Source of the DNA: Mya arenaria
Taxonomy: Eukaryota > Mollusca > Bivalvia > Myida > Myidae
Reading direction: 5' to 3'
Assembly (NCBI RefSeq): GCF_026914265.1
Contig: NC_069130.1
Location: 12,079,700-12,143,699 of the forward strand
Length of the DNA stretch: 64,000 bases
The notes under the pieces are model-generated. The model was not told the origin of the DNA. It saw only the letters and a list, made by a program, of their open reading frames with translations, and did no database searches. Of the stretch, positions 21,425 to 60,300 are shown piece after piece. The stretch's first letter is position 1, and each line of letters opens with the position of its first letter. Position numbers and translations under genes: made by a program.

Positions 21425-22125
21425 AGTATATGACGGACAGTTTGAATATTTACTGTCTGGATAACGGGATCAGGGTCCTTCTGCCTTCCTTTCTGAGGTA
21501 AAGGACTCACAGTGTAGGTATTTACTGTCTGGTCATGCGGGGTCAGGGTCCTTCTGCCTTCCTTTCTAAAGTATATGACGGACAGTTTGAATATTTACTG
21601 TCTGGTCATGCGGGATCAGGGTCCTTCTGCCTTTCTTTCTGAAGTTAATGACGGACAGTTTGAATATTTACTGTCTGGTCATGCTGGATCAGGGTCCTTC
21701 TACCATCCTTTCTGAAGTATATGACAGACAGTTTGAATATTTACTGTCTGGTCATGCGGGATCAGGGTCCTTCTGCCTTTCTTTCTGAGCTATATGACGA
21801 ACAGATTGAATATTTACTGTCTAGTCGTGCGGGATCAGGGTCCTTCTGCCTATATTTCTGAACTATATGACGCACAGTTTGAAATATTTACTGTCTGGTC
21901 ATGCGGGATCAGGGTCTTTCTGCCTTTCTTTCTGAAGTATATGACGGACAAGTTGAATATTTACTGTCTGGTCATGCGGGATCAGGGTCCTTCTGCCTTT
22001 CTGTCTGAAGTATATGACGGACAGTTTGAATATTTACTGTCTGGTAATGCGGGATCAGGGTCCTTCTGCCTTTCTGTTTGAAGTATAGGACTCACAGTGT
22101 GGATATTTACTGTCTGGTTCATATC
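21425..22125. repeat. 73-bp tandem repeat, about 9.5 units
   Basis: Units of 73 bp begin at 21425, 21498, 21571, 21644, 21717, 21790 and so on, each with TTGAATATTTACTGTCTGG and GATCAGGGTCCTTCTGCC. Units 2 and last share a variant start (GGACTCACAGTGT), which suggests a higher-order or edge variant. No coding role is seen. Confidence 0.93.
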
Positions 22126-31487: not shown

Positions 31488-31610
31488 TGCGAAAAGCTAC
31501 AGAAACTAGCCCAGTAGCGAAAAGTTTAAACATAAACCCAGTTTAGTTGCACTGGGCAAACGCCTAAGACATATAACACAAAATCACATACAAAATCAAA
31601 ATCAACTGCA
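31488..31610 (+). repeat. Dispersed repeat family, copy 3
   Basis: GCTACAGAAACTAGCCCAGT, then AAGTTTAAACATAAACCC and GCACTGGGCAAACGCC, in plus orientation. Confidence 0.7.
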
Positions 31611-32289
31611 CTTAAGACAGTAGGTAATAAACACTGAGTTTGTGCTTCAGAAGTGTTTTGTTTTATTTACTGTAACAGATAATATCGTCGAACCCCTTTT
31701 TCAAAAAAAGCCTAACCACAAATTAAACGGATTCAGTTTGTCAAATAAACTATGAAATGTTTTTCATGGTGTTATATTACTAAGTAAAGCGAGCAGAAAG
31801 ATCCGCTTGAACTCAAGTAAAACGTTGTTTACGTGTAACGATGTTAAAGAAACTCGCTCATAAATAATAATAGTAATACTTGCGGCGACGTTTACAAAAC
31901 GTGTTTACATCAATGAATTCTAGTAGTAATCAGCAACAAAAACTTAATTGAACGCACTTTTAAAAAAAATCATTCTTCATATCAGTCAACTTTCAAACTG
32001 CTAAACATGAATTATTTCAGGGATAAAGAAGAATACTCAGCCGCTGGTTCTAGTAAGTACGAACGACGGTCTTTCTTTATTTATACTTCCAATGACAAGT
32101 TACCATTGTTTCCAGGACTTATTTCAGACTATACACAAAAGGAATGTTTTCACAATATCAGAGCCTCTAAAACGTGAATGAGTCTCTTTAACATTTGCGG
32201 TAAGATAACACATGTATGAAGTTTCTTCTTAGAAATGTTTTCTTATGCATACACATTTACAAAATCGTAGAAGTGTCCGGGTTTGCCAC

Positions 32290-32297
32290 TATAAATA
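32290..32297 (+). promoter_or_regulatory. TATA box of the single-domain lectin gene
   Basis: TATAAATA lies about 80 nt upstream of the start codon at 32372, leaving a short 5' leader. The position fits a TATA-driven secreted-protein gene. Confidence 0.6.
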
Positions 32298-32371
32298 TAA
32301 GGATAATTTCAACTAATCCAAACAACACAAGACGAATTCACGTTGTTGAAAACTTAGAAAAACGTTCAAAA

Positions 32372-34246
32372 ATGAACTCAGTTGCTGTGTTATTGTTTGC
32401 CGTGTGTGCAGTGTTGGCTATTAGCTCCGGTATGTTTTAACTTTTATCTAATGTAAAGTTTAATTTTTTTTATCACATTTAAACGCAGTAATATAGTCAT
32501 GATTTTAACTTGTTCTCATGTTTGCTTCATTAATCAGTCTTTGTGCTGCCTATTTCACTTTGCCAAAGTTCTATTTATGTACGAATTGCTGTATTTGCAT
32601 TGTTTTTCAATATGCAAGTATGTTATAAATCAAAAAGGCTACAATCGAGCTAATAATCAGTCATCCTTTTCAGCCAATTATATGTTTGGCGACCTCTGTA
32701 ATAATAGATACGCATGAAACCTTTGTTTTGCACATTGACAATGTGTTCGGAATTTAGATACAAAATACTGTATGTAGGACTAATAATCACACATCACACA
32801 CTAAAATAGAATAGGACAGAACGTTCTTTGTTTCGATAGTAATACACCCAATGCGTGACGTATTATAATGCACTCATGTTTATCATTTAGCATTGACGTC
32901 AGTTTGTCCCACTTATAAAGGGACGAACTTTAAACCGATGAAATGATGATGAATGTATGATGAGAATAATAAAATCGTACGTGCGTAGCCATTTGAAACA
33001 CAATTTTATGAAACTAAGTTTATATTTTTCCCCTACTCGATCGCTGTTTTATTTGTATTTGAATGCAAATCATATAAGATCTTTTATACATTTTATATTG
33101 TACACGGCTGCGTTTTCTATTTTCAACAGGGATACCCTTTATCACCTTTAGAATTAATCAATACTAGTTTCTACCCTTTGAGCGTGTTCAGATTGATTTA
33201 TATCAGCTTTCGTCTGTCTTCATATTTGAGCTACTATAAATAAGAAAAGAAACATATTTTTGTTTACCACGTCAGTCTCGGGAGATGCGATTTTATGTGA
33301 GGGATCGAAAGGTTACATCCAGTGTCCTCCTGGCCAGAAGATAGCAGTTTATAACGCTTACTACGGAAGAACACACAATGGGAGTATCTGTCCCCATCCC
33401 GCCACATCCAACCAGAATTGCCGCGCATCTGGCTCCTTCAACAAAATCAAAAGTGCTTGCCACAATAAACAGGTACATGTTTATTAGTTTAAAAACCTTA
33501 TCGATTTTTTCTCAGTGTGAACAAGAGTAAGCAATTAACGTTAGAAGTGCCGCTCTCAGGTCCGCATATGTCAATAAACAAAATTGATCAGTTTTAACAA
33601 ATTCCGGACAGCTAATTAACTGACACGATTCATTTTCAAGTAAGCATATCCCGGACAGGTATTTACCTGATTCGAATCTTTCTCAAGGGGCAATCTGGTC
33701 GTAACTTATAACAGACAGCCATTAAACTGAGTCAAATCAAATGCGCAATCAGTTAATAACTAGCTTCAATGATGGGGCTACAATATTTAGCCCTTGGACA
33801 CTCTCACCTGCAGACGCACTAGTATTCAAATGTAAATATACAGGAAAACAGTCCAGTATGCGCAAGTTTAAACATATAAAGACTTCGATGACATTTAAAA
33901 AAAAGATAGATTAGAGTGATAAATTTGTGGTCACATCCTATTAAGGATATCAAAAGCATACAGTACAGTTTGCAGTATACGAGTATGTATAATGTTGCAC
34001 TAAGATTTAGTCCTGGAATGAGAAACATTATTTAATATCAAATATTTGCTGATTAAAACAATTCTAACTTTTTGTGAATACCAGTGATGCATTTTTAGGA
34101 AAACCCTTTTTCAAATATTCAATTAATAATATGTTATTTTCGATCAACAGCGATGCTATTTGGCGGCAAACAATGGAGTGTATGGCGATCCCTGCGTTGG
34201 AACGTACAAATACATTGAAGTGAAGTTCGCCTGTGTGCAGGCATAA
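32372..34246 (+). CDS. Rhamnose-binding (SUEL-type) lectin, single domain
   Basis: Three exons join in consistent phase: 32372-32429 (signal peptide, ends phase 1 before GTATGT), 33276-33472 (197 nt, after CACGTCAG) and 34151-34246 (after TCAACAG, ends TAA). The protein is 116 residues. Residues 1-20 (MNSVAVLLFAVCAVLAISSV) form a secretion signal, and 21-116 are one SUEL/Gal_lectin domain. It has the family hallmarks YGR (49-51), DPC (98-100) and a terminal KYIEVKFAC, with eight cysteines as expected for four disulfides. Such lectins bind rhamnose or galactose on microbes and cells and act outside the cell in mucus or haemolymph. The single domain is shorter than the two- or three-domain fish proteins. 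AATAAA near 34857 is a possible poly(A) signal. It shares exon plan and sequence with the lectin module at 47659-48048. Confidence 0.92.
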
Positions 34247-36310
34247 AACAGCCGGACATTGTTTATACTTATGAATAATTCAAATCATGTGTTGTGTAAA
34301 TGAGTCATAATGATATGAATAATTCTAAAACTGATATACTAATGAAACAAATATATATATGCCTTCTATGAAGGCGACAGAAGACTTGTCACGAGATATT
34401 TAAAAATCATTTGTTGTTCAACTCCATCAATTAATATATCAATGTACATGCGGAAACAAGAAAGAAGTTATTACAAGTGACAATTCTGGCAAAATGAAAC
34501 AATAGTTCAAAGTGGTGTTTACTTAAATTTATAAAGTAACAGAAGTTTATTTGTCTGCATAGTAACTTTACCCCTGTAGAATGTATTGTGAAAAAATCCC
34601 ATTAGATACTATTTTAAGCATATTAAGTATGTGTTTTTGCTTTTCATCTGGATGAGTTCTGATATTTATAAATGGCTAAACATTTAAAACTTATTCAATT
34701 TATGTTGCTGCGTAATATTCTTTTTGGTTAATGTGTAGATATATATATATAATTAGAAACAACTCTTCTATCTAAGCTACATGTCAGAGCACTTGTACGA
34801 ATTCCATATTCGAACAACAATGCTTAATTTGTTGAACATGTTCATTTTATTTTTTGAAATAAATGAGTTACACCAGTAAAACAATCTTGAGCTCGTTTTG
34901 CCATGCTATATAGACACATACAAACCAAAGTGGTTCGATGTGGTGTGCAAAAAGAACGACTGCCCTAGTAGTCGACCGTAGAGTAGGTTTACAATATATT
35001 TAGAGTTGCACGTCCAAATTTAGAGGCAATTTTCAAAATTGCACTTCCATATTTCGCCATGGCCAATCAAAGTCCGTCTTCAAATACGAAAATACGGACA
35101 GCTAAAAATCACAGATTAAATATCCGCGGGGCGAGATCCAAAGTGACATATAACTGACATAGAATGTTACGTACCTTTTGATTGGCCGATACGCATTACA
35201 CAAATTGTAGAAATGTGTGCTTCTAGGCCAATAACATGAATATTGTATTTAATGACATTCGCAATGCAAATACTCGACAATTGACGACAATGTATGCCAA
35301 AACTCGCCTAATATCGACCAGAGTCGGCCAATATGAGTTTCTGTTGTTTTGTTGGTCTACGAAATTCGCCACGGGATTCGAGCAACTTTCATTGGCTGTT
35401 GAAAATCGCACTTATATGAAAATGCTGTAAATCATTTTCAAAGGCAGCCATTTTGTTTTCCGTTTTACCAACTGTTTTGAGAAATGCGTGCCTTGTTTAA
35501 AACATAGCAGCAAATAGAATAGTTGAACCTCTCTAAACGGTTTGATATTACAGATGTATTTAACCAGTAAGTGGATGTTATGACAATTATATTTTTGGAA
35601 ACCGACAAAATTGACGACGAAGGTGAAAACAATCGCGAACACATTTTTTTTTTAAAATGCGAAGGTTTAAGACATATTAACAAAATATTTATAAGACAGA
35701 TAGTAAATTACTAAAATACTTGCTATTTTTTCTCATTCAGCAGTATTAGCCATCGCCCTTCGGGCTCAGGCCAATAAAACAGACCTTAGACAAATAAATT
35801 GGTCAATGTGAAATCACATTATTAAGAACATTATAGTAAAAACATTGTAAACCTATTTATATTAGGTAGCATATATCTAAGTACCATTATGGCAAATCTT
35901 TAACATTCGGTTTTCCTTGTTTACATTGCACTAATGTAAAGGCTATTCCATTGTACTGCTTTGTGTAAATATTGCTTCAATGGCTTGTCCATTGTTGTAT
36001 GGAAAAGTGAAGGCAATTCAATCAAACAGTATGTATTAAATAAAAATTTATCCCATGGACGGGGTCCAAGAAGATATTGACTGAAAAGGCATAGCGCCAT
36101 ATGTATTGCCCGCAACAGGGTGCTTCAACTACCTTTGTGGAGGTCTGAAAATGAACGAGAAGAACGAAATATGCCAACAACGACTCAAACAGACAGAATT
36201 TAGTCAGTACTACTCCTTTTTTAGCAGAACATAAATTAAGAAGAATCATTCCGCAATATGTTCTGTTGACTTCGGGTAATGGTCGAAATAAGGTCATCAA
36301 ATGTAAGTAT
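34247..36310. other. 3' flank and intergenic; cluster of CCAAT boxes
   Basis: No gene is supported. 35050-35400 has at least five CCAAT/ATTGG words in both orientations (about 35053, 35178, 35226, 35327, 35389) in a less AT-rich stretch, as seen in some promoters or in MITEs. A minus-strand open frame at 36022-36300 is unrecognised. Confidence 0.35.
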
Positions 36311-39034: not shown

Positions 39035-40440
39035 TCATTTATAAATTAGACAGTCAGCACAATAACTCAGTTGATGGCGAGCAAGACGCCTTCGCTTGAA
39101 CCGTGGTAGCTTCCTACATACATGGCAAAACCATTTCCCAGCTGGAGCACTTTCAATGTTAACACAACCATAATGAAACCTCTCAATTTCACAATCCTTA
39201 TTGTCACAACCTATCATTTTACCAAACTCAACCTGGTTACAAACACAATACAGTTTGTCATCACTTTCGTCATTGCTTTGGATATTTTCTGATGATTTCA
39301 GTGGCGGAGTACATGAAGACTGGTTTTGTCAACAGCAAGAGCTGTGTGCACTTTAGCTACAAGCTCAGGCAGTATTGCAATTTCAATCAAATTGTCCCTT
39401 TATTTACAAATATTTTCAAAGAAGTTTTTGTCAAATGGTATTGTCTCAAGTGAGTAAGTCACATCCAATTTACAAACTCTCATTTGTGTGTGAACCTGGT
39501 AGTAGTAGCTGTGTTCCCGGTTTAGTGTAAACTAGCCTTCTTTGATTTCAAGGCATGTACAATTGCTCTCGCAGAGCCACAACAACCACACGTGAGAATT
39601 CCATCAGATGACGCCCCGAGAAATGGCCTGTCTGTGCTGATGAATAACCCACAGTCTGAAATGCACATTCCCTCGTGCTCATGGTTCACATGCTGAACGA
39701 ACTGGTCACGTGCTCTGCTTTCATTACTTAGACCCCACCTTTTCGCATTGTTTTCAAATCTGCTACTTTCAGGGTAGCAAATACTCTTTACCAGACTTTT
39801 AGATGACTTAAGCGGGTTGGTCATACATGCAGCCTTCATTTTTGAAGTAGTTATCCGACCGGCTTTAAATTTAAACCATTTGCAGCTTGTTCAACAGAAC
39901 ATTTCAAAACAACAATTGTAGTGACCTAACCAATGAGGTCTGGATCACGCAGTTTTGTCAATTGTTCTGGTAAGTCGAGTTTGTCTGCCCTTGAGATGAA
40001 CTCATCAGCAAAAGGATCAATGACAGAGAGTAGGCCAGGTTTCTTCTGCAACTGTTGGGCTTTCTCATAAAATGATATGAAGTCTGAATATGAGGCTTTT
40101 AGAAAACACGCGTGTTTGGTGTTTTCCTGGCATTTCACATGTTAAAGTCATCTTCCGGGATGCGGATTTCTTTGATATGAAATCTCACTGATTACCTTAT
40201 AGTTGATCGCCTTTGTAGCTGTTGGCTGTATCCACTAGCATTTGCTTTCTGTCATAGACTTAGAGTACCTTACTTCCACAACAGCCATGACATAAAACAA
40301 GAGGGCTGCAACGTGAGTACACGCCTCGCCAAGACCAGCCATGCAGTTACAATGGGCAGCAACAAAAACCCCATCTGGCTTTGCGATGACCCATGGTTGT
40401 AGCGGCTTTTCTCGCAGCCTCTGTGAATGCAGGACCTGAA
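39035..40440 (-). pseudogene. SWIM-YqaJ-PHD accessory protein remnant of the transposon
   Basis: Read on the minus strand. After an acceptor (TTTCTTCAG) near 40440 comes a SWIM zinc finger (CNCMAGLGEACTH within about 40290-40420). 40138-39926 (LPEQLTKLRDPDLIG) is a linker. 39870-39540 is the start of a YqaJ-type exonuclease domain (KSICYPESSRFENNAKRWG, then FISTDRPFLGASSDGIL with the catalytic GASSDG region). 39520-39370 has HSYYYQVHTQM, also typical of YqaJ. 39217-39080 is a PHD finger (CDNKDCEIERFHYGCV...WFCHVC). Several stops and a frameshift separate the parts, so it is a dead copy. Confidence 0.7.
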
Positions 40441-42342: not shown

Positions 42343-45300
42343 ATGACAACAAGTATGAGGCATTTGGTTTGGTCGAGCTTTCTGATGTCATGTTTGGTTA
42401 ATGAATGTAAGTCTTCATTCATTAAGCATTCATCTCCTATTGTCTGATGGTTCAACAATTTGAAACCGAAGGAAATTACTCACAATAAGTCGTTTGGATA
42501 TCAAAATAATGAGAGTAGATATCAAAAACGGTTTAATACATTTACTGTTACAATTAATGTTATGAGAACTGTAACTGTTAATAGATGAACACGTTTTTTT
42601 AAATGAATACCATTCACCAAAAATGCATAGGCAAAAACAGAAAGGGAATACTCATTCAACAAGTCAACTGTCGCAAAACATTTCAAAGGTAATGTCAGAC
42701 TTCCGAGATGACTTTTAGCAGACATACGTCGTATACGACCTTGCAGTCATAATAATCTACATAACAATTTAAATCAGATAAAAAACTAAGAATTATTTGT
42801 TAAGAACAACGAGAGCTATTTGTAAAAGGACAAACATTTTTAGAGTATGTTTAAATGTTCTTTAAAGAGTAAACAAGTATAAATTATGTGCCATAGGAAT
42901 AAAATAAATGCCAAAACCTTGAACTAGAATGCTATTATACGTTAATTTAATCCCACAAATACGACTTCTGATAAAAAATTATTGTATATGCTTTGACACG
43001 AAATTGTATGTGAGTAATGTACGACGTACGACATTGAATGTACGCCGCGATAAATGACGTGAATTTCATAACTGTACATGTAGCTACATATACATGTTGC
43101 AGTTTAGTTAAAAAGTCGGTTGATTCATTTAACGATAAACCAGTACTTGTACGCTTGATAATAATTGCATAAATAAGTTTCCTGGTGCTATATTTAAAGT
43201 GACACTTTTATTCAAAATCTATGAATACACATGTATAACAAACTTTTGAGTGATAAACCTTTGACAATTTACTTTATAATGCATTCATGGAAAATACTAA
43301 TTACTGATAACAAGATTGAAGCCGTGTATTTAAAAGCATAAAACACAAAAAAAAATTTAAATGATTGGTGAATGCTAAAAGATTTAGTGTGATCTATTAT
43401 AGTTTCATAAGATAGAAATTCCGTGTTTTCTGCACATTTCTTTGAAATAAAACTCGTTATTCTTCAAAAGAACCATTGTTTTCGACATTTATTCATCTTT
43501 TCTGGTATATTAAGACAATCGAATTAATTGTGGTCAATACTTTTTTGGAGTAATAGTGCATCTTTAATATAATGTCTTTTTAAACATTTACAATATGATC
43601 AAACTTTGATGACGTTGTGCACAAAAGCTAGTTAGCGCGTAAAAGTGTTCCAAAACTTTTCTTTTTTCTCGATTAGAACGTAATAACTTTAGTTAGAAGA
43701 TTTGATGCTATGACTTAAATACCATAATGGTAAAGATCATAATCTGATTTGACCTATATTTCGTTTAAGTAAACGATATGAACAATTTTCATGAACTATG
43801 GTTGGCTTTTAAACGTGAACATGTTCAAGAGATTTAGGATGGGAAGTCGTTTGAATGAAAATGTTGAAGACGGACAGACGGACGGACGGACGACGGACAA
43901 TCACTCTATCACAATAGTTCACAGTGAGCACTTTGTGCGCAGGTAAGCTAAAAACGCAAAACATATTAGAAAAATGTTTATGCATGTTCGTTTCAATCAT
44001 TTTCATTTTCTCAGCTCATTCAAATACGTTGAAATAGGTAAAATTAAACTGGAGCTTTAATTCACACGTTTTTCAAGTACTAAATATATGTGTGTCAATA
44101 TACTGCCCAAATAAATGTATCTTTATTTAAACAGCGCTACATTTTTCCAGGCCTGAGTCTTGTCTGCCTCAATTGCTCCTCCACACTTTCGCCACGTGAC
44201 TGCACTGACGTCACGACTTGTGCGTCAAATGAGGTACAAATTTGGACATTTAATGTTTGGTTGTGTAAAATTAACATGATTGCGTTATGTTTCTTTCGCA
44301 TGTTTATAAAACAATGCTACCTTTTTTATTTTGCTGTCTGGCCAATGCTTGGTTTTACATGTATCTTCATTGAATTTTTTCTCTTGCTTGGTATTCTGTT
44401 CATATAAAATGGCACCATGATTGCTCAGAGCTGCTATTTAATATTACGCTCCGCCTACTATCTGATGTTATTGTTATTACTGCTGAAGGTTTTTGTACAT
44501 AGCAGAGTTGTGTTTACTATCATGAGATGTATATCGTTATTAAAGTATAAAACATTGTATTGTGTTTATATACACTTACCACTCAATTTCATAACATCCC
44601 TCATGTTGATACTCTTCTTATGGACGTACTGTTGGCGCAGTGGTTCTCGTCTGACCTATGCGACTCGGGTTCGATTCTCGGCCTTGGCGCCTGTATGTTG
44701 ATCTGTGGTCATCAGTTCGGAAAAGTGGGTTTCCTCCGTGTACTCCGGAGTCCCACACAACACAAGACCACTCTCGTGTCACACCAAGCCAACGAGAGTG
44801 ATAAATAAAATGTTGTAATAACTTGTTGCACAATCGTTGTTAAAAATAGTTTAAACTTATAATTATCTTTGTCGAACAAATTATGTTTTATTTACATGTC
44901 TTATTTTAAAGTGCGTTTATTAGGTTTGCTTTGCCGACATACTGTCCACCGCAGATGGAATCAAACATGTGTATGGATGTAGAAGTGCCATGGTAAGTAC
45001 GCGAACAGCATCTATACTTTCAAGTTCTACTCTATTACTAGGCACACTCTCGGTGTCAGTCGACATACGTGTTTACATTCACGAAAAAAGAAACAAGTAA
45101 TTGGTTGTATAAGGCCTCTTGAACACTTCTAAATATAGACAGACAATACAATCTACACGTTAAGAAGTGAAAAAATGCCCGGCCTTTGTATACGATCGGT
45201 ATAAGATAACATAATGGATAAAGTAATACCTTTTTTGCTATTTACCATAGCAATGTGGAGTAGCCATCGTTGGAAAACGATCCAACAGTAACTGCTCTCA

Positions 45301-48048
45301 ATGCTGCCAAGGTGATCTATGTAATGCATTTCTTTGTGGTGAAACTGACGGCCTAACGACTTCGGGGCCCGTGTGTTACTCCTGTGGAGAACGGCCTAAC
45401 TCCGATGGATGCAGCAAAATCCGACAATGTGACAGGGATCAAGTATTCTTGCATTTTTTTTCTGACTTGCAAAACTGAAACTTATATAAGAAAACTTTTC
45501 ACTTGTGTTTTAACGTTCGTAATTCTTGCCCCAATTTCTCGAAACTTCTTTATGTTAACATGTTTAAGTAGCTTATTTCGTTTTGCCACATAAAATCCTT
45601 AAATTTGATTTTGATAATTGCTTTATAGTAAATAACATAACGATAATTAATATTTATAGTCTAACAAATCTTGAAGAAGTAAATATAACACAACTCTCAT
45701 TTATCAATTGTCTTAATTAAATAATAACAAACTTCTTTTGCCGCAGGTTTGCGAGCTTTATCCGAGCATTACTTCGATATCCCATCGACTGGTTTATTCC
45801 ACAGACTGTCAAAGTAGAACAGTATGTTTCTTAACATTACTTTACTGTTATTGACGTTACTGTCATTTACGGTATATTTTGGTTAAAGCATAGACTTTAA
45901 TGCATTTTGCATTTGTTATCGACAAAATACTTAACGCAGTCGATAAGCATTGTATTACAAACAAACATGTCTCGATTCATCCCAGCATAAGTTATGTAAT
46001 TCAAAATTACGTCCTTTTACAAAAAATTAAATTGGACTTTTTTCTGGAATTTGTTCACTTAATATTGATTGCTTGATCTCTTGAAGATCTGTGAAAGTCG
46101 GATAAAGGCAACCAACAGTTTTCATCCAGGTAAGACGCTATTATTAAAGATTGTAACTCTTTTTTATTGACGTAAGTTTTCATTAAGCATAAGTGTAATG
46201 TACGAGGGGTGTCCGGAAAGTTTTTCGATTGTGTCTTTATTTCAAAACGGTTTTAATTTAAATCAACAAACAATACATAGCTGTATAAAGACTATTCACG
46301 ATTTTTCTTTTGAAAAATAAAATGACATAAGCTCGTACTTAGGAAGGAAATGGTTGTCAAGACAACCCATGTAGCGCTTCACGGAACACTTTGAAATTGA
46401 CGTTTTCTAAAAATTTGTTCACAATTCGTTATATACTATTCCAATCTCATTAAAATCATATCGTGACGTTCACTTCATTTCATTACGTTCATAGCGTAAC
46501 ATCGTGAAGCGTGTATTGGGGATCTGATTTTAATGAGATTGATACTACTCCCACTGAATAATAGACGCCAAAACGTCACGTTTAAACATATGACGACAGT
46601 ATGAGATCAGCTGCATCACTGCGCAAATTATTGACGTCATCTAACTGTAAATGTATTGATGCTAATTAACTCTTTTTTATTGGCGTATGTTTTGCATTAA
46701 GCAGAAGAAGTATTATGTATAACAAAAGTATGATATTTACATTTGTTGTTTTAAAGCCTCCGACTCAGAAACAAGCTAGTACTCTGATATAGGCATGGCA
46801 CTGATAACGAATGTAAAATAAATGATTTAAAGTACATACATAAAAAGTGTTATAAGATGAGTATTTGCCCTTTTGTCAACTACAATGTGTCGTAAATGGC
46901 CTATTTGCAATCTTGGATGGCCAGAAAAAAAATTGTTTGATATATAATTATTATTTTTCATATCTTTGACATTTGAAATTTCTTTTTCTGCAAATAAAAC
47001 CGTTTCAAGAAACTAAAATAGTATGGGGTCACAGGCATATAACATTCACATTTGTGTGGGTAGGATACCTCAATGGCCATGCCCATGTTGTTATACATAG
47101 TACAAGGCGTCGATTTTCATTAAAATGTCCATGTCTGTGTTTCAGGTAATGTCTGTGGCTCTATATGTTGCGACACCAATTTGTGCAATAAGGCCAATTG
47201 TGCTAACACAACCATTACAGGTCAGTAATTAATGATGCTTCGTTGATGGACGTAATATCATCATCATCATTATCATCATCATCATCATCATCATCATCAC
47301 ATCATCATCATCAGCATCAGCATCAGCATCATCATCATCAGCAGCAGCAGCATCAGCATCAGCATCAGCATCATCATCATCATCATCATCATCAGCAGCA
47401 GCATCAGCATCAGAATCATCATCATCACATCATCATCAGCAGCAGCAGCAGAAACATCATCATCATCATCATCATCATCATCACCATTATCATCGTCAAT
47501 CATCAATCATCATATACATCATCACATACATCATCATCCTCCATTTATAATGGGGGGTTTTGTTATCTATACGAAGCCGCTTAAATTAATCTGCTGCCTT
47601 ACATTGAGTAATACTTCCGCATTTATAAAGATTCAACTTACGTTTCATACCACATTAGTCTCGGGGGATGCGATAATATGCGAGGGCTCGAGTGGTTACA
47701 TCCAGTGTCCCCCTGGCAAGAAAATAGCAGTTTCTGACGCTTACTACGGAAGGACAAATGACGGATCTGTTTGCCCCTTTTCATCTATATTCGACCTCAA
47801 CTGCCGCGCTGCCGACTCCTTTACCAAGATTAATAACACTTGCAGCAATAAACAGGTAATTAAAATGAAATATGTTTGTACAATTTTGATGAATGAATAC
47901 GGTAGTTTTACTCTAGTTTTATATTACATATGTTGTTTCTTTTCCATAGCAATGTTTCCTGACGGCGACGAACGCAATGTACGGAGATCCATGTTCTGGC
48001 ACGTACAAATACATCGAAGTGAAATTCACCTGTGTGGTCGTAGTCTGA
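42343..48048 (+). CDS. Secreted Ly6/uPAR-Ly6/uPAR-SUEL lectin fusion protein
   Basis: Nine coding exons: 42343-42406, 44151-44233, 44924-44992, 45251-45442, 45747-45821, 46087-46129, 47146-47220, 47659-47855 and 47950-48048. All have AG/GT borders and matching phases, and sum to 299 codons including TGA. Residues 1-25 are signal-like ([20 protein letters not shown]). Residues 26-102 are a first three-finger domain (CLNC...GCRSAM/QCG...CCQGDLCN). Residues 113-194 are a second (CYSC...ICCDTNLCN). Residues 202-298 are a SUEL lectin with YGR (230-232), DPC (279-281) and eight Cys. The two Ly6 domains share intron positions, so they arose by duplication. No GPI or transmembrane tail is seen, so it is probably secreted. 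The function is inferred to be carbohydrate binding plus protein-protein contacts. AATAAA lies at 48079. The first exon starts with an acceptor at 42332, so an upstream non-coding exon is implied. The first-exon assignment is the least certain part. Confidence 0.8.
43869..43900. repeat. (GGAC)n-like microsatellite
   Basis: Imperfect GACGGACAGACGGACGGACG run inside intron 1 of the Ly6-lectin gene. Confidence 0.8.
44625..44840 (+). mobile_element. tRNA-derived SINE in a Ly6-lectin intron
   Basis: The head has an A box (TTGGCGCAGTGG) and a B box (GGGTTCGATTCTC). The body has GGGTTTCCTCCGTGTACTCC and a late segment AACGAGAGTGATAAATAAA, a layout common in bivalve tRNA SINEs. It lies in sense orientation between exons 2 and 3. 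The target-site duplication is not resolved. Confidence 0.75.
45537..45720 (+). mobile_element. Partial MITE, same family as 16984-17234
   Basis: GCCCCAATTTCTCGAAACTT matches the terminal repeat at 16984. The far end is not clearly preserved. It lies in the intron after exon 4 of the Ly6-lectin gene. Confidence 0.6.
46204..46440 (+). mobile_element. Mariner-like terminal fragment
   Basis: ACGAGGGGTGTCCGGAAAGT followed by TTTTCGA resembles the terminal repeat of mariner-family elements. No matching inverted end or transposase was found, so it is a one-ended fragment or a strongly deleted copy. Confidence 0.45.
46440..46543. mobile_element. Short MITE with 17-bp inverted ends
   Basis: CAATCTCATTAAAATCA (46442-46458) and its exact reverse complement (46525-46541) bracket a 66-bp core. 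Non-coding. Confidence 0.6.
47256..47545. repeat. Long (ATC/AGC)n compound microsatellite
   Basis: Nearly 290 bp of TCA and GCA triplets fill most of the intron that joins the second Ly6 domain to the lectin domain. Its translations (poly-His/Gln/Ser or poly-Met/Asp) are not genes. Confidence 0.93.
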
Positions 48049-48078
48049 GCGCATATCACTTTTAATACAAGTGTATAA

Positions 48079-48084
48079 AATAAA
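48079..48084 (+). terminator. Poly(A) signal of the Ly6-lectin gene
   Basis: AATAAA 31 nt after the stop codon implies a very short 3' UTR. Confidence 0.6.
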
Positions 48085-48364
48085 GCTTGCGGAGACTTAA
48101 TCAAGTGGTTTTCGATAATAAGTTGTTCACCTCCATAAATGTACACATCAATTTACTAAGTCACTCAAAACACACAAAAAGGCGTACATATATATTTAAA
48201 AAGCCTGCCCCACGTGTATATATGGACAGGAAAACAATTGAAATGGGTTTTATAACATTATCAATTAAATCATAATATAAAGTATGTGTGTTTAACCGGA
48301 TTACTTATTAGACTAAGATAATTGTCTAGTTCCTTGTAGAAATGGCTTAGACAAATATGAAACA

Positions 48365-48546
48365 ATAATAGTATATATGCACTGGGTTGTCTGTGGAGTT
48401 TATCGTTGTTCCATGTTCTGTTTTGCGATTCATTGTTTTTATGTTTTATGTTTTTGGCGTTTACCCTGTGCCATTTAACGGGGTAAATGTTTAAACTTTT
48501 GATTACTGAGCCTGCTTCTGTAGTTTTGCACATAAATATAGTAGCC
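48365..48546 (-). repeat. Dispersed repeat family, copy 4
   Basis: The minus strand reads CTACAGAAGCAGGCTCAGTA, AAGTTTAAACATTTACCC and GGGTAAACGCC. Confidence 0.65.
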
Positions 48547-49008
48547 AAACCATGTATTATATCTTATGTTTTTGTATGATGTACGTTTAATTGATTGCAT
48601 AAATGTTTATCATGATTATTTTACCAAAGATCACTTCTTTATGCTTAAACAAATTATCATATTTAAACAACCTGTTAATGTATCAAATAGTTTTAAATAA
48701 AGAGTTATGGAAGTGTGCCTCACCCTGTGTTGTGTTTCAAGTCGACGGACCAACACTTTTAGCTTGCTTCCTACCATTAAACTGTTACGTGATTAAATGT
48801 GCATTCTCATATCCATTTAATACGGTTTGGATCAAAGGAGTTATCAATATCAGACAGATTGTAATAGGAGAAACATCAGCTTTTTCGATTTCTTTCATGA
48901 CAGCAGAATAATCATTCGAAAATATCAATGTAATGGCGACCTCGACGATATTAAGTCCATAGCCCATTATGAAAGCATTTTTATAAATACTGAAGACAAA
49001 ACGGATTG

Positions 49009-49081
49009 CATCCCCGGCGGGATTCGAACCCGCGACCTCTGGATTAGAAGTCCAGCGCGCTATCCACTGCGCTACGGGGAC
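49009..49081 (-). tRNA. tRNA-Arg (anticodon TCT)
   Basis: 73 nt, clean cloverleaf: acceptor GTCCCCG with CGGGGAT, D arm TAGCGCAGTGGATAGCGC, loop CTTCTAA giving anticodon TCT, and T arm GGGTTCGAATCCC. TTTT follows the 3' end on the minus strand (polymerase III terminator). Identical to the copy at 54983-55055. Confidence 0.96.
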
Positions 49082-49270
49082 ATGGATTTATCGTATGCTT
49101 CCTTTTTCATTGATCGGTCTACAGTAAATTTAAAGTATTAAGTACACAACTTAAAATCGAAAACCTGTACTACCGATTTTAACGTTTATTGCCTAATGTT
49201 CAAACTAAACACAAACGTATATACGTATATATTGGAAAACTATTTACATAAATGCACGAATATACAATAA

Positions 49271-49599: not shown

Positions 49600-50850
49600 A
49601 ACGGTGAAGTTTCATTTTTAAATTACAAAAATGTAATGTTTTTACCGACAGCTTTTTTATATCAGCAATTTGTAATCTAAGAAACAAATCAATGCAAATG
49701 CTATATAATCAGATATTTCTGTTTGAACTCCCCTTGATATATCATAACAGAAGCGTCTTTAGGCCACACCAAACTGATAACTTGTTCATCGGATTTTTTC
49801 CAAAAAATAATGGGGCGAGCGAGCGAAGTGATAATTAAAATATTTCTTTTGCATTTAGCAAAAAAGAGGAGCGAGCGAAGGATGAACAAATATAAATAGT
49901 CATTTAACTCACTTTTGCTCACATTTTATTCACTTATTAACTAAACAATGATATTGTAAACAGTACAAGGATAACATCCAGTGAAAGAATGATAATATAT
50001 ATGCAAAAAGCTACAGAAACATGCTCAGTAGCAAAAAGTTTAAACATAAACCCGGTTTAGTGGCAATGGGCAAACGCCAAAGACATAGAACAGAACACTA
50101 AAAGATAATTCTATACAAGTATTAGTTTTGAGATCAAACAAATGATATTTGAGATCAAGCAAATGTATTTCTTTAAAAAAAATTAATAAATGAGAGAACT
50201 CAAAACCACAGTTTTCCAGTTTTTTTAAACCTTTTTGATTTTTTTTCAAAATACCCTATGCATGGCTAAGTTAAGGCCTGGACACAAGCGCCAATGGTCA
50301 TAGCCACCTACCTGCCCAATGGCATAGCCAAATCTATTAAGTAGGTTTTCCACTTTTCCTTAGGAAAACTTGGTTAAAAATAATTATCTATTAAAATACA
50401 TTGTCATATCTCATGCCATGGAAATGACTAGACAAGGTGACTTGAAAAATAACTTACAAAATAAATATAGGCATTTGAAATCAAATATAAACTACAGCTA
50501 TCACTCTTGCAATGACTACACGATTGGCCATCTTAGTTCTGAAAGAGAATTCACAAAAATCCTACACAGTATTGTAAACCATTTCAGCACCAAATATGTC
50601 ACAGAAAATTCCAACCAGCGCCAGATTGATTTTAGGCTTTATCAGAATTTAACGCTTATCTTTTTTAAACTTGCAGATTTTCCTTATTTTTTTAGATATC
50701 TTGTTCAAATTTAGACAAGTAATAGAAATACAAAAGACACTTTTACTTCTTTTGTACTGCAAAAACTGATTGTGTACAAGAATATGCAATATGTTTTCAT
50801 AGACAAAACCAATCAGCATAAATATTTATAATCATTCATAATTTTGCACA
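49600..50850. other. Insertion specific to duplication copy A
   Basis: Absent from the equivalent place in copy B (about 55680-55745). Contains a dispersed repeat copy, GAGCGAGCGAAG words (49816-49877) and an unassigned 114-codon open frame at 50370-50714 with no motif. Confidence 0.5.
49998..50110 (+). repeat. Dispersed repeat family, copy 5
   Basis: GCTACAGAAACATGCTCAGT, AAGTTTAAACATAAACCC and GGGCAAACGCCAAAGACATA. Confidence 0.7.
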
Positions 50851-50878
50851 TTTAGTATGTTTAATTCAGATTTATTTT

Positions 50879-51170
50879 CCCGGTGGCCAAGAAGACTAGG
50901 GATTTCACTGAAAGGTCATGTTTCGGTTTGACTTCTACCTTGTAGATGTTCAAAATGGATCACACTGAAAGTTGATCTATGAAAGATTCTCCTAATGGGG
51001 GGGTCCTATTATACGTGAAAATGTTCACTCTGTGAAATAAATTACATCTTGACATCCACTTTATATTGACATAGGACACATTAAAATGGCTTAAAAATTG
51101 CACAGGTAAATCATGTTGTGTTTAAATAATATATATTCTGATGTTCGAAAGTAATTAAATATATAAAGTT
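50879..51170 (+). repeat. tRNA-like block, copy A
   Basis: Begins CCCGGTGGCCAAGAAGACTA, with degraded A- and B-box positions, and continues about 290 bp shared with 55780-56060 and 62270-62540. It may be an old tRNA gene or SINE carried along by the segmental duplication. Confidence 0.5.
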
Positions 51171-52056
51171 ACAATCCTTGGGTTCTCAGTTACCACTCTA
51201 ACGTTAGTCATACCATTAAAATTCCATTAATCAAATAAGAACGTTTTCTTACTGATAAACAATACTAATGACATTAGTAACATGGTTATAGTTTTGAAAT
51301 GTACATTGAAACACTTGTATTACTTAATAGTGATGTCCGATTTAAAACATGACCAAATATGAACCTCAATTGTTTTAGCTACGATTCGGTATAAGCAAGA
51401 AACTCAATCTTAGTTGTAAAGCTTAGACACTAAAGACCCTTCGCGTAACTGTAATTGAAATTACATCGGAAATGCCCTTCACTTTTGCTTATGGATCGTT
51501 TAGCTCAAGACCACAGTTATCTGCCCCCGTTGACCAAGATCCGGATGTTAATACAGAAAAAAGAGTCCTTCTGTTCAAGTATCAATATTTTATTAAAATT
51601 GAATGAAAAAGAAGCAAAAAATGTTCTTCTTGCAGATAACTTGACTGAATTTGACACTCTATTGCAGAAATTGATAGTTTTCAGTGTACATTTTGGAAAA
51701 ATCATAGCTTGTGGAAGTCTGAAAATTAGTTGTTTATAGCCGATTGACTCCTTGGCGGAAGGGTTCTGTATTTGAACTCAATTTTGACAGTCGGGTCAAT
51801 GGTCAACATGGTGTTTTCTTGTGATTATATTTTGTGTCTTGAATTGTTCTAGAGATGCCATGTCCTTGTTTTTCAATTGGGATGTGTATAAAGTCAAAAG
51901 CCAGGTTAGTGTCGATATGAAACATATAGTAAAAATAACTGTGGTCTCACGCCTAATGGTACTCTCGGTATCTTGGTGTGTTTTGCAAAGGTAGACAAAA
52001 CGCTTATGGCATTCCCGGCGGAATTCCAAACGACGAGCATAACATAAAAAGGAATG

Positions 52057-52128
52057 CTCCCCGACGGGGAATCGAACCCCGGTCTCCCGCGTGACAGGCG
52101 GGGATACTTACCACTATACTATCGAGGA
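52057..52128 (-). tRNA. tRNA-Asp (anticodon GTC)
   Basis: 72 nt, clean cloverleaf: acceptor TCCTCGA with TCGGGGA, anticodon arm CCCGC-CTGTCAC-GCGGG, T arm GGGGTTCGATTCCCC. TTTTT follows on the minus strand. Identical to 56393-56464. Confidence 0.96.
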
Positions 52129-52559
52129 AGCGATATTTGTGGCGTTAGATCTTAACACAAAAATGAGATATAATCGGCTAAGGGATATTGGTCTACTACG
52201 TTAAATTTCTTATACATTGCAAAGTTTTGTAAAACATACTATAGATAGTATACGTATTTAAAAGAGATAACAGATCATCACATGATGTAATAGTTTTTTG
52301 ATATTATATATGACCGATGATAATTAAACTCATATATTGCTAATGGACATATATAAATATTAAGATTCATTCTGATAATCCGCAAATAAACAATGTTCAC
52401 TTTAAACGTAACATTTAAGTTGGGCTGATTTCGTTTGTTTGATTTTCGTAAAATTATCAATTGTTGATTTATATTAACAGTAATTTTAAATATCGCCATT
52501 GAATCTTGTTCCGACAAGCTTGATTAAAGCACGCTTGAAGTATGATACGTAAACCACTA

Positions 52560-52710
52560 GCACGGGCCAATTATATTTACTTTCCTTTTAAGGCAAACAT
52601 CACGCTCGCGCCACAATTCGACTATCGCGTGCTTGATTTAGTTTTACCTACCTTTCTTATCGTTGTGAATGTTTGCTTAAATGTGGTTAAGACTGGAGCT
52701 TAAATCAGAA
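52560..52710 (+). promoter_or_regulatory. Conserved Hes promoter block, copy A
   Basis: Over about 100 bp (GCGCCACAATTCGACTATCG onward) it differs from copy B at only about four positions, far fewer than the surrounding sequence. It contains CGCGTG (52626-52631), the class-C E-box that Hes proteins are known to bind. Autorepression is therefore possible, but that is inference. Confidence 0.55.
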
Positions 52711-52911
52711 GTATTAGGGATCGATATTGATTAAAGTAATAAAAAAGAGATCACGTTCAATTCAAATGTTAGATCTTAAGCGGAACATGTTTTGAAATAG
52801 CTGTCAGTTAAAAGAAATGCTAAATGTTTGTGTAAGCTATATTATTTTAAACCTGCTGTTTTGGAATAGAAGATCGTGCAGCGTGTATTAAGAACGTGTC
52901 TCGCTATTGAT

Positions 52912-52965
52912 ATGGGACCGCCTACGTCACCAAACAAAGACAAACCGAAAGGCATTCAACGAAAG
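52912..52965 (+). CDS. Hes first exon 1A (alternative)
   Basis: ATG at 52912 is the first in-frame start after a TAG. It encodes 18 residues, MGPPTSPNKDKPKGIQRK, and ends at AAG/GTATTT in phase 0, which fits exon 60805-60900. Homologous to exon 1B (57312-57365) by segmental duplication. No second set of downstream exons exists between the two, so both must splice to the same exon 2 or one is inactive. Confidence 0.7.
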
Positions 52966-54414
52966 GTATTTTTTGAAAACATTAGGTTTTTTTTAAATAT
53001 TGTAAATGGATATATTATCTGTTTAAAGAAGTGTATAAAAAACAAACTTTTTTTAAACAACTAATAGTCTATGTTGATAAACATATTCTGTGGAGTTTGC
53101 AAATTGCAATAACTATCTCACTGAATCAATTATGCGGTTATAGAAATACTTTCCTCTTGCAAACAGTAGGGGTATTTCATATCAAATTCAAACTTTCGTT
53201 CATCCTTCATTCAGGTCCTTTTCCATTAGTCGAAAGATATATTGTTTTTGTTTTTCATAGTTTACAACTACAATCTAATAAATTAAAATGATTTACATAC
53301 TGTTATTATTTAAAGAATTATTCAGAGAAAAAAAACAGGCCCAAACAGAGTTTTATTAAGAGATTATATCAACTTGATTATATCTGAATCATGCACTTCA
53401 GATTATCGAATAACTACGTCATGAGTTGATCCTTTAAAAAGGAATAATCTATGACAAGATTATGAATACTCTTTTTGAAAGAAGACTGAAATTAGTGGTT
53501 TAACTTTATAAATGTTTGAAGTTATTTTGGGGGCGTTTTTGGAATCTTAAATTCTTAGTTATTTCTTAAATCAGCCGTAAGAGCTTACTATCAGTCAATT
53601 TAGATTGAATGTTGATTGCAGATCATTGTTTTAACATTTGTTTCGAAACAAAATAAGGCGTTGGAATCTATAGTTGCAACACTATTAATACATGTTATGT
53701 TTAACGTTAAACGACATGTTTCTGCTTGAATGAATAAAGAAAGACATCAATTCATATGTATTTCTTAAATTTGATCGATTTGAGAGATCTGTACCAAATA
53801 ACAGCTATATTCTTTAAAATTGAAACTGATCCGATATGAGTTAGCGGTCATCATGATAATGAATGGGCATACTAAATCATTTACCAAAACACTAGCAAGG
53901 GATTTGTTTCTTTGTAAATATATATCACTCTTTTATGCCGCCTATGAGTCTTTGTTTTAATCTAGTTTTATACACTGCGGTGACAATACATTATGTTTTA
54001 TCTGAATTGTCCTTCATTTATGCTACAATTTATTTTTTAACCAATGAAAAACATTAAAATCTCGAAAAACACTTTTGTTGCATGAATGTCATTTTAACAC
54101 TTTACAACACGTTATATTATCAACTATAAGCACATATAACAAGTAATTAAACAAGAAAATAAGTTTAACGCGTTAACGTCCAATGTCTGGTCTGAAAAAC
54201 GTATTCTTTGAGTGTTGTTTAAATGCCATCCCCACATATACAGTCTGATACGAAAACATTTGTATGGCCTTTATTCCAACATAGCCTCAAACTGATTGTT
54301 GACGACCATTAAGTCCATATAATAATATAGACTCTTCATCGTCATGAATGCACATAATGTCAATTAACTTATATTAGACCAATATAGACCCTAGACCACT
54401 ATTTATATGAAACA

Positions 54415-55427: not shown

Positions 55428-55779
55428 TTGGAATTGAAATATAAGACATAATCGATTATGAGATATAAGTCATATACCTCACACGCTACCGTTACGTTTT
55501 CCTTCAATTTTTCGTTTAAAAAACGTATGTATCAAAAAGATATTTTCGAGGAAATCTATCCTTCATTAAAGCAAATTGGGGAGGATCACGTTATTCATAA
55601 GAAAAATATCTCCGCTTGCAGAAAATGCAAACACGTTTCTTTTTAGTAAGGCTATCATATACGCATCAATTTTGATACTGCATTTGTTTATATTTTGGAA
55701 CCATTATATTTCATCTGTAATAACAGTATCTATCAATGATAATTGAGCATAGTTAGTATGTTTAATTCAGATTTATTAT

Positions 55780-56060
55780 CCCGGTAGCCGAGAGGACTAG
55801 GGATTACACTGAAAAGTCATGTTTCAGTTTGAATTCTACCATGAAGATGTTCAAAATGTATCACACTGAAAGTTGATTTATGAAAGATTCTCTTAATGGG
55901 GGATCCTATTACAAGTGAAAATGTATACTCTGTGAAATAAATAACATCTTGACATCCACTTAATATTGAGCTAGGACACATCTCAATGGGTGATAAATTG
56001 AACAGGCAAATCATGTTGTGTTTAAATAATATATATTCTGATGTTCGAAAGTAATAAAAT
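55780..56060 (+). repeat. tRNA-like block, copy B
   Basis: Best preserved of three: CCCGGTAGCCGAGAGGACTA with an A-box-like TAGCCGAGAGG, ACTGAAAAGT in the anticodon position and AGTTTGAATTC as a B-box-like site. The acceptor does not pair, so it is not a working tRNA. Confidence 0.5.
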
Positions 56061-56392
56061 ATATTTAGTTACAATCCTTGGGTTTTCAATTACCACTCGA
56101 TTTCTTAATAATAAACAATACTAATGACAGAAGTAACATGGTTATAGTTTGAAATGTACATTGAAACACTTGTATTACCTGAGCCGCATCCCTCGATTTA
56201 GGGCCTTCGGACATGTCTGATACGATAACATGTGTACGTTAAAGCTCTTTATTTATATATGTAATATAACGAGAAAAGTAACAAAAGGATCAGTTTGGCC
56301 TTTATTCCAACGGCAATGTATAAACCTGCATTAAACAGATATGGCATTTCAAGGCGGAATTCCACACCACGAACATAACATTAAAAGATTTG

Positions 56393-56464
56393 CTCCCCGA
56401 CGGGGAATCGAACCCCGGTCTCCCGCGTGACAGGCGGGGATACTTACCACTATACTATCGAGGA
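56393..56464 (-). tRNA. tRNA-Asp (anticodon GTC), duplicate
   Basis: Identical 72-nt gene to 52057-52128. TTTT lies downstream on the minus strand. Confidence 0.96.
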
Positions 56465-56949
56465 AGCGATGCCTGTATGTGCTACATCGTATCATAAATT
56501 ATGAGACATAATCAGATATGGGGTATTGGTCTTAAAACCTACACGCGATTATTCCTTTTCCTATACATTGCAATGTTTTGTAAACATACTAGATAATGTA
56601 CGTATTTGAAAAAAGTAAACAGATTATCGCATGATGTAATAGCTTTTTACATTATATTGTGTGAATATTTGTGAAGATAATTAAACCCATATATTGCTTA
56701 TGGAAATATATAAATATCAAGATTCATTCATTCATTCAATTCACCAAGATCAAATTTATTCTGATAATCCGCACATGAGCAATATTTACTTAAAACGTAA
56801 CATTAAAGTTGAGCTGATTTCGTTTGTTTGATTTTCGTAAAATTATCAATTCTTGGTTTCTATTATCAGTAATTTGAAATATCGTCCGTTAATCTTGTTC
56901 CGACAAGCTTCATCATAGCACGCTTGAAGTATGAAATGTAAAATATAAG

Positions 56950-57100
56950 CACGAGCCAAGTATATTTACTTTCCTTTTATGGTAAACACCGCTCGCGCCA
57001 CAATTCGACTATCGCGTGCCTGATTTAGTTTTACCTATTTTTCTTATCGTTGTGAATATTTGCTTAAATGTGGTTAGGACTGGAGCTTAAATCAGATGCG
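56950..57100 (+). promoter_or_regulatory. Conserved Hes promoter block, copy B
   Basis: Partner of 52560-52710, with the same class-C E-box CGCGTG at 57013-57018. Confidence 0.55.
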
Positions 57101-57261
57101 GTATGTATATTTGGGATCGATATTGATTAAAGTGATAAAGAGAGATCACGTTCAATTCAAATTTTAAAGCTTAAGCAGAACATGTTTTGAAATAGCTGAG
57201 AGGTAAAAGGAAAGTTGATGTTTGTATAAGCTGTATTATTTTAAAGCTGTTGTTTTTGAAA

Positions 57262-57268
57262 GTGGGAA
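57262..57268 (+). promoter_or_regulatory. CSL/Su(H)-type site near Hes exon 1B
   Basis: GTGGGAA, the core recognised by the Notch effector CSL, lies 44 nt upstream of the exon 1B start codon. It is missing from the equivalent stretch of copy A (52855-52875). The position is probably within or near the 5' leader. A single 7-mer is weak evidence. Confidence 0.35.
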
Positions 57269-57311
57269 GTAAATCGTGCTGTGTGTATTAAGCAAGTGCC
57301 TAGCTATTGAT

Positions 57312-60300
57312 ATGGGACCACACACGTCATCAGATAAAGACGAACCGAAAAGCATTCAGCGAAAGGTATTTTTCGGAGAAGATTTTTTTTTTTTCAAAAA
57401 TACTGCAAATGGATATAATATCTGTTAAAAGAAGTGTATCATGCCCATCAATATATTTTTAAACAAATAATAGTCTCTTTTATAAACATATTTTGTGTAG
57501 TAAACAAATTGCAATAACTTATCTCACTGAATCAATCGTGCGAATATAGAAATAATAATATTTTGCAAGCAGTAGGAGTATTTCAAATCAAATTCATTTT
57601 TTTTGTTTTTCATTTCTTAAGGTCCTTTGCAATTAGGCGAAAGATAAATAGTATTTGTATTTAATAATTTACAACTACAATCTAATAAATTAAAATGATT
57701 TACATACTGTTATTATTTAAAGAATTGTTTAGAGTAAAAGCAGGCCCAAACATTAGGAACATTCATGACGCTGAATACTCTATACATGTAGTATTTTATG
57801 TACTGAATGATCGCCCGTTTTGTTAAGAGCATAGCATTCAACTTGATTATATCTGAATCATGTACTTCAGATTATCGAATAACTACGTCATAAGGTGAAG
57901 TGGCCTTTAAAAAGAAATAATCTATGACATGATGATGAATACTATTTTTGGAAGAAGACATACATTAATGCTTAAGTATTATAAGTGTTTGAAGTTATTT
58001 TTGGGGCGTTCTTGAAATCTTAAATTCTTAATTCTATCTTAAATCAGCCGTAAGTGCTTACTATAAATTAATTTAGATTGAATGTTGATTGCCAATACAA
58101 GTTATAGCATTTGTTTAGAAATTAAAAAGGGCGTTAGAATCTATAGTTGCAATACTTTTAATACATGTTATGTTTAACGTACTGTAATATATACTCAGAA
58201 TAAACGAAATGTTTCTGCTTGAAAGAATAAAGAAACACATCAATTAATATGTATTTCTTAAATGTGATCGATTTGAGAGATCTGTACCAAATTACAGCTA
58301 TATTCCTTTAAAGTGAAACTGATCCGATATGAGTAAGTGGTCATGATGATAATGAATGGGCTAATAAATCATTTGCCCACACACTATCAAAGGATATTTT
58401 CTTTGTATACATATATTTGAAGAAAAAAAAACGATTTTATTGTCGCCTATATGTCTTTGTTTTAATCTAGTCTAATACACCGTGGAGACAATAAATTATA
58501 TTTTATCTAAATTGTCCTTAATTATAATTTAATACACCGGCGGACAATAAAAATATATTTTGTTTCTGAATAGTCCTTCATTTATGCTACATTGTATCAT
58601 TTAACCAATAAAAACACGAAAATCTCGAATACTACTTTTGTTGCATGTATGTCATTTTAACACTTAAGCAACGCGTTATATAATCAACTGTAAGCACCTA
58701 GAGCCAGCTAGATAATAACAACAAGAAAACAAGTTTAAAATTCAACGTTAACGTCCAATGTCTGGTCTAAAAAATGTATTGTTTGAGCATTGTGAACCTG
58801 CAATCAACAACTGTACAGTCTGATACGTAAACATTTGTATGTTAAAGCTTTCAATTTCTCTACGTTATATTACAAGAAAGGTAACAAAAGGATCATTTGG
58901 GCCGTTATTCCAACGGCAATGTATAAACCTGCACTTAACAGCCTGTTGGCGACTGTTCAGTCCATATATACGATAGAGTCTTCAACGTCATAAATGTTCA
59001 TAATATCAATTATCTACCCTACAGCAATATTTATATGAAAAATACGGGGTCCTACAAGTCAAGAAGTAGACAGTTTCATTCTAAACCCCGTTCAATGGCA
59101 CAGAGTCAACGCCAATGAAACAGAACAGAAAAACCCATCCACACACCAGAAAAAACAAACAATAAAACTAAAGATCACAAACACTTAATATATGGAATAA
59201 AAAACTAGGGTCATTTTTCAAGTATTGTTAAAGTCAGAAAAAATGTTATATTACTTTGGGTTTGTGTGCACAACCACAGATTATCCCATCAATCCCGAAT
59301 AAAGAAGAAGAAGAAGATGATTTTATTTCATTTCAAACATTCAAAATACATGGTTTCAATTAAATAAGTCGAAATGACCCTTGATCATTGCAAAAGCTGA
59401 TACATATTCATATATATATTTATATGGCGATCATAGTCAATAGTTCAAATGTAAAAACATTTAGTATTCGAGCATGTATAGCACATAGATAAACTATACA
59501 CACAAAGAAATGAAAGTAATATGCGTTTAAATTCAAGGCTTAAACTCTTTATAAATTATTACGCTACCTAGTTAACTCTTTCCGTATTTCAAAAGCTCTA
59601 AATACAAAAACTGCAAGATTTTTAACTACATTAACATTCTTCGACATAAAAAGCGCAGTTGTTTTATACATGCTTGGATGTAGACGATAGTATCGAGGTA
59701 AGTATCTTTGTCTAATATCGGTATACATGTTACATTCAACAAGAAAGTGGAATTCATCTTCTAAAATGTTACACGATGGACATATCCTATTATCAATATA
59801 TGTACGGTTCCATCGACCGGTTTCAATACTTAATCTATGAGATGATAACCTCAATTTGCTGAGCGCAATCCTATATTTTTCAATATTAACGCATTTTAAA
59901 TAAAACTGAAAATCAAAGAAAAATATATTTTAATAAAACAATGCCCTAGAAGATTCAGTCAGCCTCCTATGAAGGTTTTGAACACAATTATCCGTTAGTC
60001 TTTGTTTAAAAAGTGATAGAAAACTCGTGTAGTCTCCTACATCTTGTACTAACCAGACATGATAGAAACCCAATGAACTTAGAACACCTTTAACCTGTGT
60101 TGCCCAGTTATGTTTTAAAGGACGAATTTCAATATCATCTAACATGAGTTTATAAATAAGATTAATGTATTTGTGTTCCGGAGAACAAATAACCTTAAAC
60201 CAGTACTTAATCATGCTTATAGTGCTGTGTGTCTGAATATCTAGTTTACCGGCCTCTGCTTGGATAAAATCATTTTGTGTACTAGTTTTCACAGATAGTA

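Follow-up and report, generated by a model that had tools for sequence, protein, structure and literature searches.

Whether a gene of Mya arenaria joins a pair of Ly6/uPAR-type (LU) domains to a rhamnose-binding lectin domain of the SUEL/RBL type, or whether two adjoining genes have been run together by prediction, is the question raised by positions 42343-48048 of the window, i.e. the entire stretch of 64,000 nucleotides from contig NC_069130.1 that we analysed. Taken as a whole, our data make us lean towards one gene that encodes a secreted LU-LU-SUEL protein, whose lectin exons were probably captured from a duplicated RBL gene and whose product would work as a soluble adaptor. The parts of this explanation differ in strength, and we therefore treat gene structure, domain content, origin and mode of action in turn.

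Gene structure and predicted product

Joined across eight GT/AG introns of compatible phase, nine exons on the forward strand encode 298 amino acids plus a stop. The structural details given in a first-pass annotation made from the sequence letters (nine exons, splice phases, start, end, the length of 298 residues and, in particular, the exons at 47146-47220 and 47659-47855) was reproduced in our analysis. The features of the locus are:

42343..42406, forward strand: exon 1, with the start codon and a probable signal peptide; it ends in phase 1 at the donor gtaagt
44151..44233, forward strand: exon 2, opening portion of LU domain 1
44924..44992, forward strand: exon 3, middle of LU domain 1 with two canonical Cys; missing in the gene model MAR_004101
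45251..45442, forward strand: exon 4, which closes LU domain 1 (CCx4CN) and opens LU domain 2
45747..45821, forward strand: exon 5, middle of LU domain 2 with two canonical Cys; missing in MAR_004101
46087..46129, forward strand: exon 6, LU domain 2; it ends in phase 1
47146..47220, forward strand: exon 7, which completes LU domain 2 (CCx4CN) and adds a linker; both ends are in phase 1
47221..47658, forward strand: intron 7/8, 438 bases, mostly an ATC microsatellite (47257-47538)
47659..47855, forward strand: exon 8, opening portion of the SUEL/RBL domain; it begins in phase 1
47950..48048, forward strand: exon 9, which completes the SUEL/RBL domain (DPC motif) and carries the stop codon
48079..48084, forward strand: AATAAA; it starts 31 bases after the final base of the lectin stop codon

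The GC content of the exons is 46.6% as opposed to 32.1% for the introns. An acceptor-like tttgtttcag, found by eye, ends at 42332 just before exon 1, so that an additional 5' UTR exon is likely to lie further upstream. The joined product is identical in 298/298 residues to an NCBI protein named 'L-rhamnose-binding lectin CSL1-like [Mya arenaria]', whose precomputed Pfam entry is PF02140 only. NCBI thus already lists the fusion protein, as a lectin, and what we offer is a fresh interpretation of that record; its current database name conceals half of the protein, namely the LU domains.

Several other features share the window with this locus. Two local duplication blocks (50831-54266 and 55732-58841), about 77-81% identical, carry tRNA-Asp genes (52056, 56392), and a tRNA-Arg gene plus flank is also repeated (49008, 54982). 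On the reverse strand, 39522-39890 encodes a YqaJ-type recombinase domain (PF09588, 48.3 bits with a cut-off of 22), and a PHD-like open reading frame close to it (39035-39328; 18.8 bits, under the cut-off of 24) may possibly form one gene or mobile element with it. Tandem repeats occupy 9329-11769 (a 40-base unit in about 61 copies, with related sequence at about 3992-4171), 17336-17851 (72-base units) and 21419-22118 (a 73-base unit in about 9.6 copies).

Two LU domains and one SUEL/RBL lectin domain

LU domains follow a pattern of ten Cys that ends in CCx4CN. Both candidate domains of the fusion protein, 28% identical to each other, have 12 Cys apiece, ten of which fit this pattern, and both end in CCx4CN. 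With Pfam, LU domain 1 scored 22.2 bits and LU domain 2 21.2 bits against PF00087 (cut-off 21.2), the latter barely at the cut-off. The UPAR_LY6 profile (PF00021, cut-off 24.8) was missed by both at 16.5 and 15.7 bits, respectively, and LU domain 1 also stayed below the cut-off of Activin_recp (16.9 versus 20.9). Weighing pattern and profile matches against the PF00021 miss, we regard both domains as LU-type, though not as PF00021 members by that family's own cut-off. A profile built from the two LU sequences and run against solved structures points the same way: it picked up LYPD1 (E 3.3e-4), PSCA (0.009) and SLURP1 (0.013), followed by TGF-beta receptor 1 (E 0.032 and up), CD59 (0.27 and up) and, more weakly, GPIHBP1 and LYPD6. 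Of the 21 sequences listed up to an E of 10, one is unrelated (hybrid cluster protein, E 1), and LYPD1 is alone in passing 0.001. The two Cys per domain in excess of the pattern flank the end motif in both LU domains (C87/C101 and C179/C194) and may pair with each other. An AlphaFold model computed from the single sequence reached a mean pLDDT of 31.5, too low to speak for or against a three-finger fold. Elsewhere in the window, a six-frame scan for CCx3-6CN ends gave only two unconvincing cases (54502 and 63248), and no further LU exons came up in a tblastn search with the full-length protein, which divergent ones could escape.

The lectin half is a SUEL/RBL domain by a clear match: in the Pfam scan PF02140 scores 72.4 bits (E 4e-20, cut-off 31.4) and its profile is covered from position 1 to 80 of 80. 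The domain content proposed earlier, two Ly6/uPAR-type domains and one rhamnose-binding lectin domain, is borne out. The best solved relatives are the L-rhamnose-binding lectin 5h4s (E 8.4e-53, in three stretches) and CSL3 (E 1.1e-33, in two stretches). YGR and DPC motifs are present along with eight Cys; according to the accessible part of PMC3269628, these two motifs and four disulfides belong to the RBL domain. The same excerpt names the residues of the primary sugar site in CSL3 and, when mapped by hand on the alignment, 6/6 of these are present in the fusion protein (E209, Y230, N274, D279, G283, K286). They are likewise all present in a paralogue further upstream (see below). Of the two CSL3 residues linked to Gb3 preference, however, Arg39 has no counterpart and Gln43 is replaced by Ser, as judged from a hand count on the alignment. 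Hence, Gb3 preference is not to be expected, and terminal rhamnose or galactose would be the likelier ligands of what we predict, from its sequence, to be a rhamnose/galactose binder.

An upstream paralogue and the origin of the fusion

The window holds a second gene with a lectin domain of the same type:

32372-34246, forward strand: paralogue with a single SUEL domain, 116 amino acids, made up of a signal-type exon (32372-32429) and two SUEL exons (33276-33472, 34151-34246)

Its lectin part (95 residues) scores 82.7 bits with PF02140 and it is preceded by a TATA-like tataaatata at 32290, noted by eye. In paralogue and fusion the SUEL exons have equal intron phases (1, then 0) and matching splice sites, and the encoded SUEL parts are identical in 65/97 amino acids (dN 0.21, dS 0.81). 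The similarity extends into non-coding DNA: 47648-47858, which spans exon 8, its acceptor and 11 bases of the preceding intron, is 75.8% identical to 33265-33475, and 47928-48036, i.e. most of exon 9 plus 22 bases before it, shares 73.4% of its positions with 34129-34237. The 3' flank adds a weak match of 35 bases (E 0.002). The signal exon of the paralogue has no counterpart near the fusion lectin exons (46000-48600 compared with 31500-35500, E up to 0.01); in the fusion, LU exon 7 with its phase-1 end stands in its place.

A paralogue whose lectin exons, phases and splice sites match those of the fusion suggests that the latter probably arose by capture of lectin exons. In the simplest history, a single-domain RBL gene would have been copied in tandem, the copy would have been left without a signal exon and a two-LU gene would then have captured both of its lectin exons via compatible phase-1 introns. 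The direction and timing of such a capture are inferred.

One transcript or two genes

NCBI holds a second model of the locus, MAR_004101 (42262-52965), in which exons 3, 5, 8 and 9 have no counterpart. It translates the ATC microsatellite, a segment at 48902-49132 that covers a tRNA-Arg gene on the opposite strand (49008-49081) and two further segments, 52557-52670 and 52870-52965, and it has no Pfam match at E 0.01. We considered MAR_004101 as a paralogue and rejected the idea, its pieces mapping to the same locus. Since it removes two canonical Cys from each LU domain and lacks a Pfam match, we give it little weight; very likely, it is a faulty gene model. As to the sources of both models, the name style of the 298-residue protein suggests that it derives from the NCBI pipeline annotation of this assembly, which, as far as the available text of PMC11978232 goes, used RNA-seq from six tissues, and we take MAR_004101 to be a MAKER model. 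According to an excerpt of PMC10663159 the MAKER annotation was given a Trinity transcriptome, yet the lectin exons are omitted from MAR_004101. If this attribution is right, transcript support for them may be weak or absent, perhaps due to weak expression.

Omission of the SUEL exons from MAR_004101 is what one would expect if prediction had merged two adjoining genes, one for a two-LU secreted protein that stops soon after exon 7 and another for a separate single-domain RBL with its first exon within 47221-47658 or missing. This option gains from the finding that translation continued past the end of exon 7 meets a stop after Gly-Gln, and from an ATG at 47550 within intron 7/8, in frame with exon 8, as a possible rival start. 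The N-terminus beginning at this ATG is more hydrophobic than exon 1 (best 9-residue hydropathy window 2.23 versus 1.84, compared to 3.23 for the signal exon of the paralogue), so a separate lectin start is possible. Moreover, a stand-alone RBL gene exists in the same window and there is precedent in a rotifer, where the part of PMC8878817 available to us describes adjacent SUEL genes fused in a gene model, likely as an annotation artefact. By eye, the pyrimidine tract of the exon-8 acceptor is weak; its place, phase and AG, though, match those of the paralogue acceptor, and the stretches compared above gave no homologue of the signal exon near it. Nor does the 438-base intron 7/8 contain an AATAAA or ATTAAA; downstream, the first such signals are two where exon 8 ends (47847, 47859) and the one at 48079. 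The model that leaves out the SUEL exons looks itself unsound, given that exons 3 and 5 are missing from it as well and that it reads through a microsatellite and a stretch antisense to a tRNA-Arg gene. The fit of the phases, the identical NCBI protein and the AATAAA shortly after the lectin stop also speak for one transcript. To our minds, a merger of two genes is unlikely, and we are fairly confident that 42343-48048 is one real gene.

A gene that is transcribed as a fusion might still be a recent or non-functional by-product, for instance of read-through splicing, whose joined protein has no selected role. Consistent with this, a single LU-bearing copy was found in the window, protein searches of low power did not recover an orthologue of the fusion and the two annotations conflict. 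Retention of all six sugar-site residues in the lectin domain, however, argues against it, and so does a dN/dS of about 0.26 for the SUEL pair, albeit this ratio cannot tell which copy is constrained, nor does it speak for the fusion as such. We consider such a by-product less probable still than the merger and proceed with one gene for one LU-LU-SUEL protein.

Secretion and mode of action

Exon 1 encodes a probable signal peptide, predicted as a weak one from simple hydropathy. Cys residues are distributed over the three domains as 12, 12 and 8, and the last Cys is followed by four residues, which is why inspection of the C-terminus reveals no GPI or membrane tail. Judged from these parts (weak predicted signal peptide, Cys counts and short tail) the fusion product is most likely a soluble secreted protein. 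With a single RBL site, any second contact would require the LU domains or self-association. As a soluble adaptor in mucus or haemolymph, the protein would use its lone RBL domain to bind terminal rhamnose or galactose on the surface of a microbe or cell, and its two LU domains would supply the contact to a protein, be it a haemocyte receptor or another partner. Tentatively, we take this to be the most likely mode of action; it is in line with the bridge between a carbohydrate surface and a protein partner that the first-pass annotation proposed.

Its chief rival accepts the fusion as real but not as a bridge. Here, the LU pair would be a stabilising or oligomerising stalk, and several single RBL domains would act together as an agglutinin. 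Classical RBLs are multimers or tandem repeats, with SUEL being a disulfide-linked homodimer (excerpts of PMC3269628 and PMC8350385), and the fusion protein has only one RBL domain. In addition, Cys22 sits just before LU domain 1 and, if signal cleavage precedes it, would be left unpaired for a covalent dimer. If Cys22 leaves with the signal peptide, on the other hand, each domain has an even number of Cys and none to spare. We regard such a stalk as rather unlikely, if less so than either the merger or the by-product above, and keep the soluble adaptor as our preferred reading.

Relation to known systems

With animal RBLs (SUEL/RBL; CSL1-3) the fusion shares YGR, DPC, eight Cys and, as far as the accessible description of CSL3 goes, all the primary-site residues; it differs from them by having one C-terminal RBL domain behind two LU domains and by not keeping CSL3 Arg39/Gln43. 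LYPD1, SLURP1, PSCA and CD59, LU proteins that are secreted or GPI-anchored, have in common with it the 10-Cys pattern, the CCx4CN end and a profile match over most of the domain. Unlike these, the fusion has LU domains in tandem with two extra Cys each, shows no GPI tail, has a lectin attached and scores below the UPAR_LY6 cut-off. The upstream paralogue differs again in that its signal-type exon directly precedes SUEL, without LU domains. Similar in layout are the rhamnospondins of Hydractinia, which, according to the consulted part of PMC3269628, are likewise secreted, place repeated modules before a C-terminal RBL domain and have a proposed role in immune recognition, but carry thrombospondin repeats and a serine-rich region in place of LU domains. 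Thrombospondin type 1 repeats do not occur among the Pfam matches of the fusion protein up to E 10.

We had also inherited the statement that no named family joins LU and SUEL domains. It fits the many RBL partner domains listed in the accessible section of PMC3269628 (including thrombospondin repeats, olfactomedin, GPS/7tm, C-type lectin, PLAT and discoidin), with no Ly6/uPAR among them, and a literature search on lectins combined with Ly6/uPAR or three-finger domains, which covered few subscription papers and was judged by titles and the starts of abstracts, gave no relevant report. Still, the statement is unproven, because the protein searches for relatives of the same architecture returned only the NCBI record itself and MAR_004101 and were too insensitive to recover ordinary SUEL lectins. 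A search with the SUEL region gave 7 candidates, all of them proteins from about 164 amino acids up, so that SUEL-only models are excluded and nothing is said on how widespread the architecture is. We therefore describe the combination of LU and SUEL as apparently undescribed, within families that are themselves known.

If the locus is expressed as one mRNA, it would be a compact case of domain shuffling in which the fused product and a gene of the likely donor type lie inside 16 kb. One could go further and envisage a kind of secreted recognition protein that has no name so far and that arose in clams through exon capture: its one-site lectin would be aimed at glycans, its Ly6-type pair would recruit a host protein, and the whole would be a soluble glycan-to-protein adaptor. 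We find this somewhat doubtful. On the same proviso of one mRNA, the fusion protein would be a candidate for a lectin adaptor that serves immunity or gamete recognition in bivalves.
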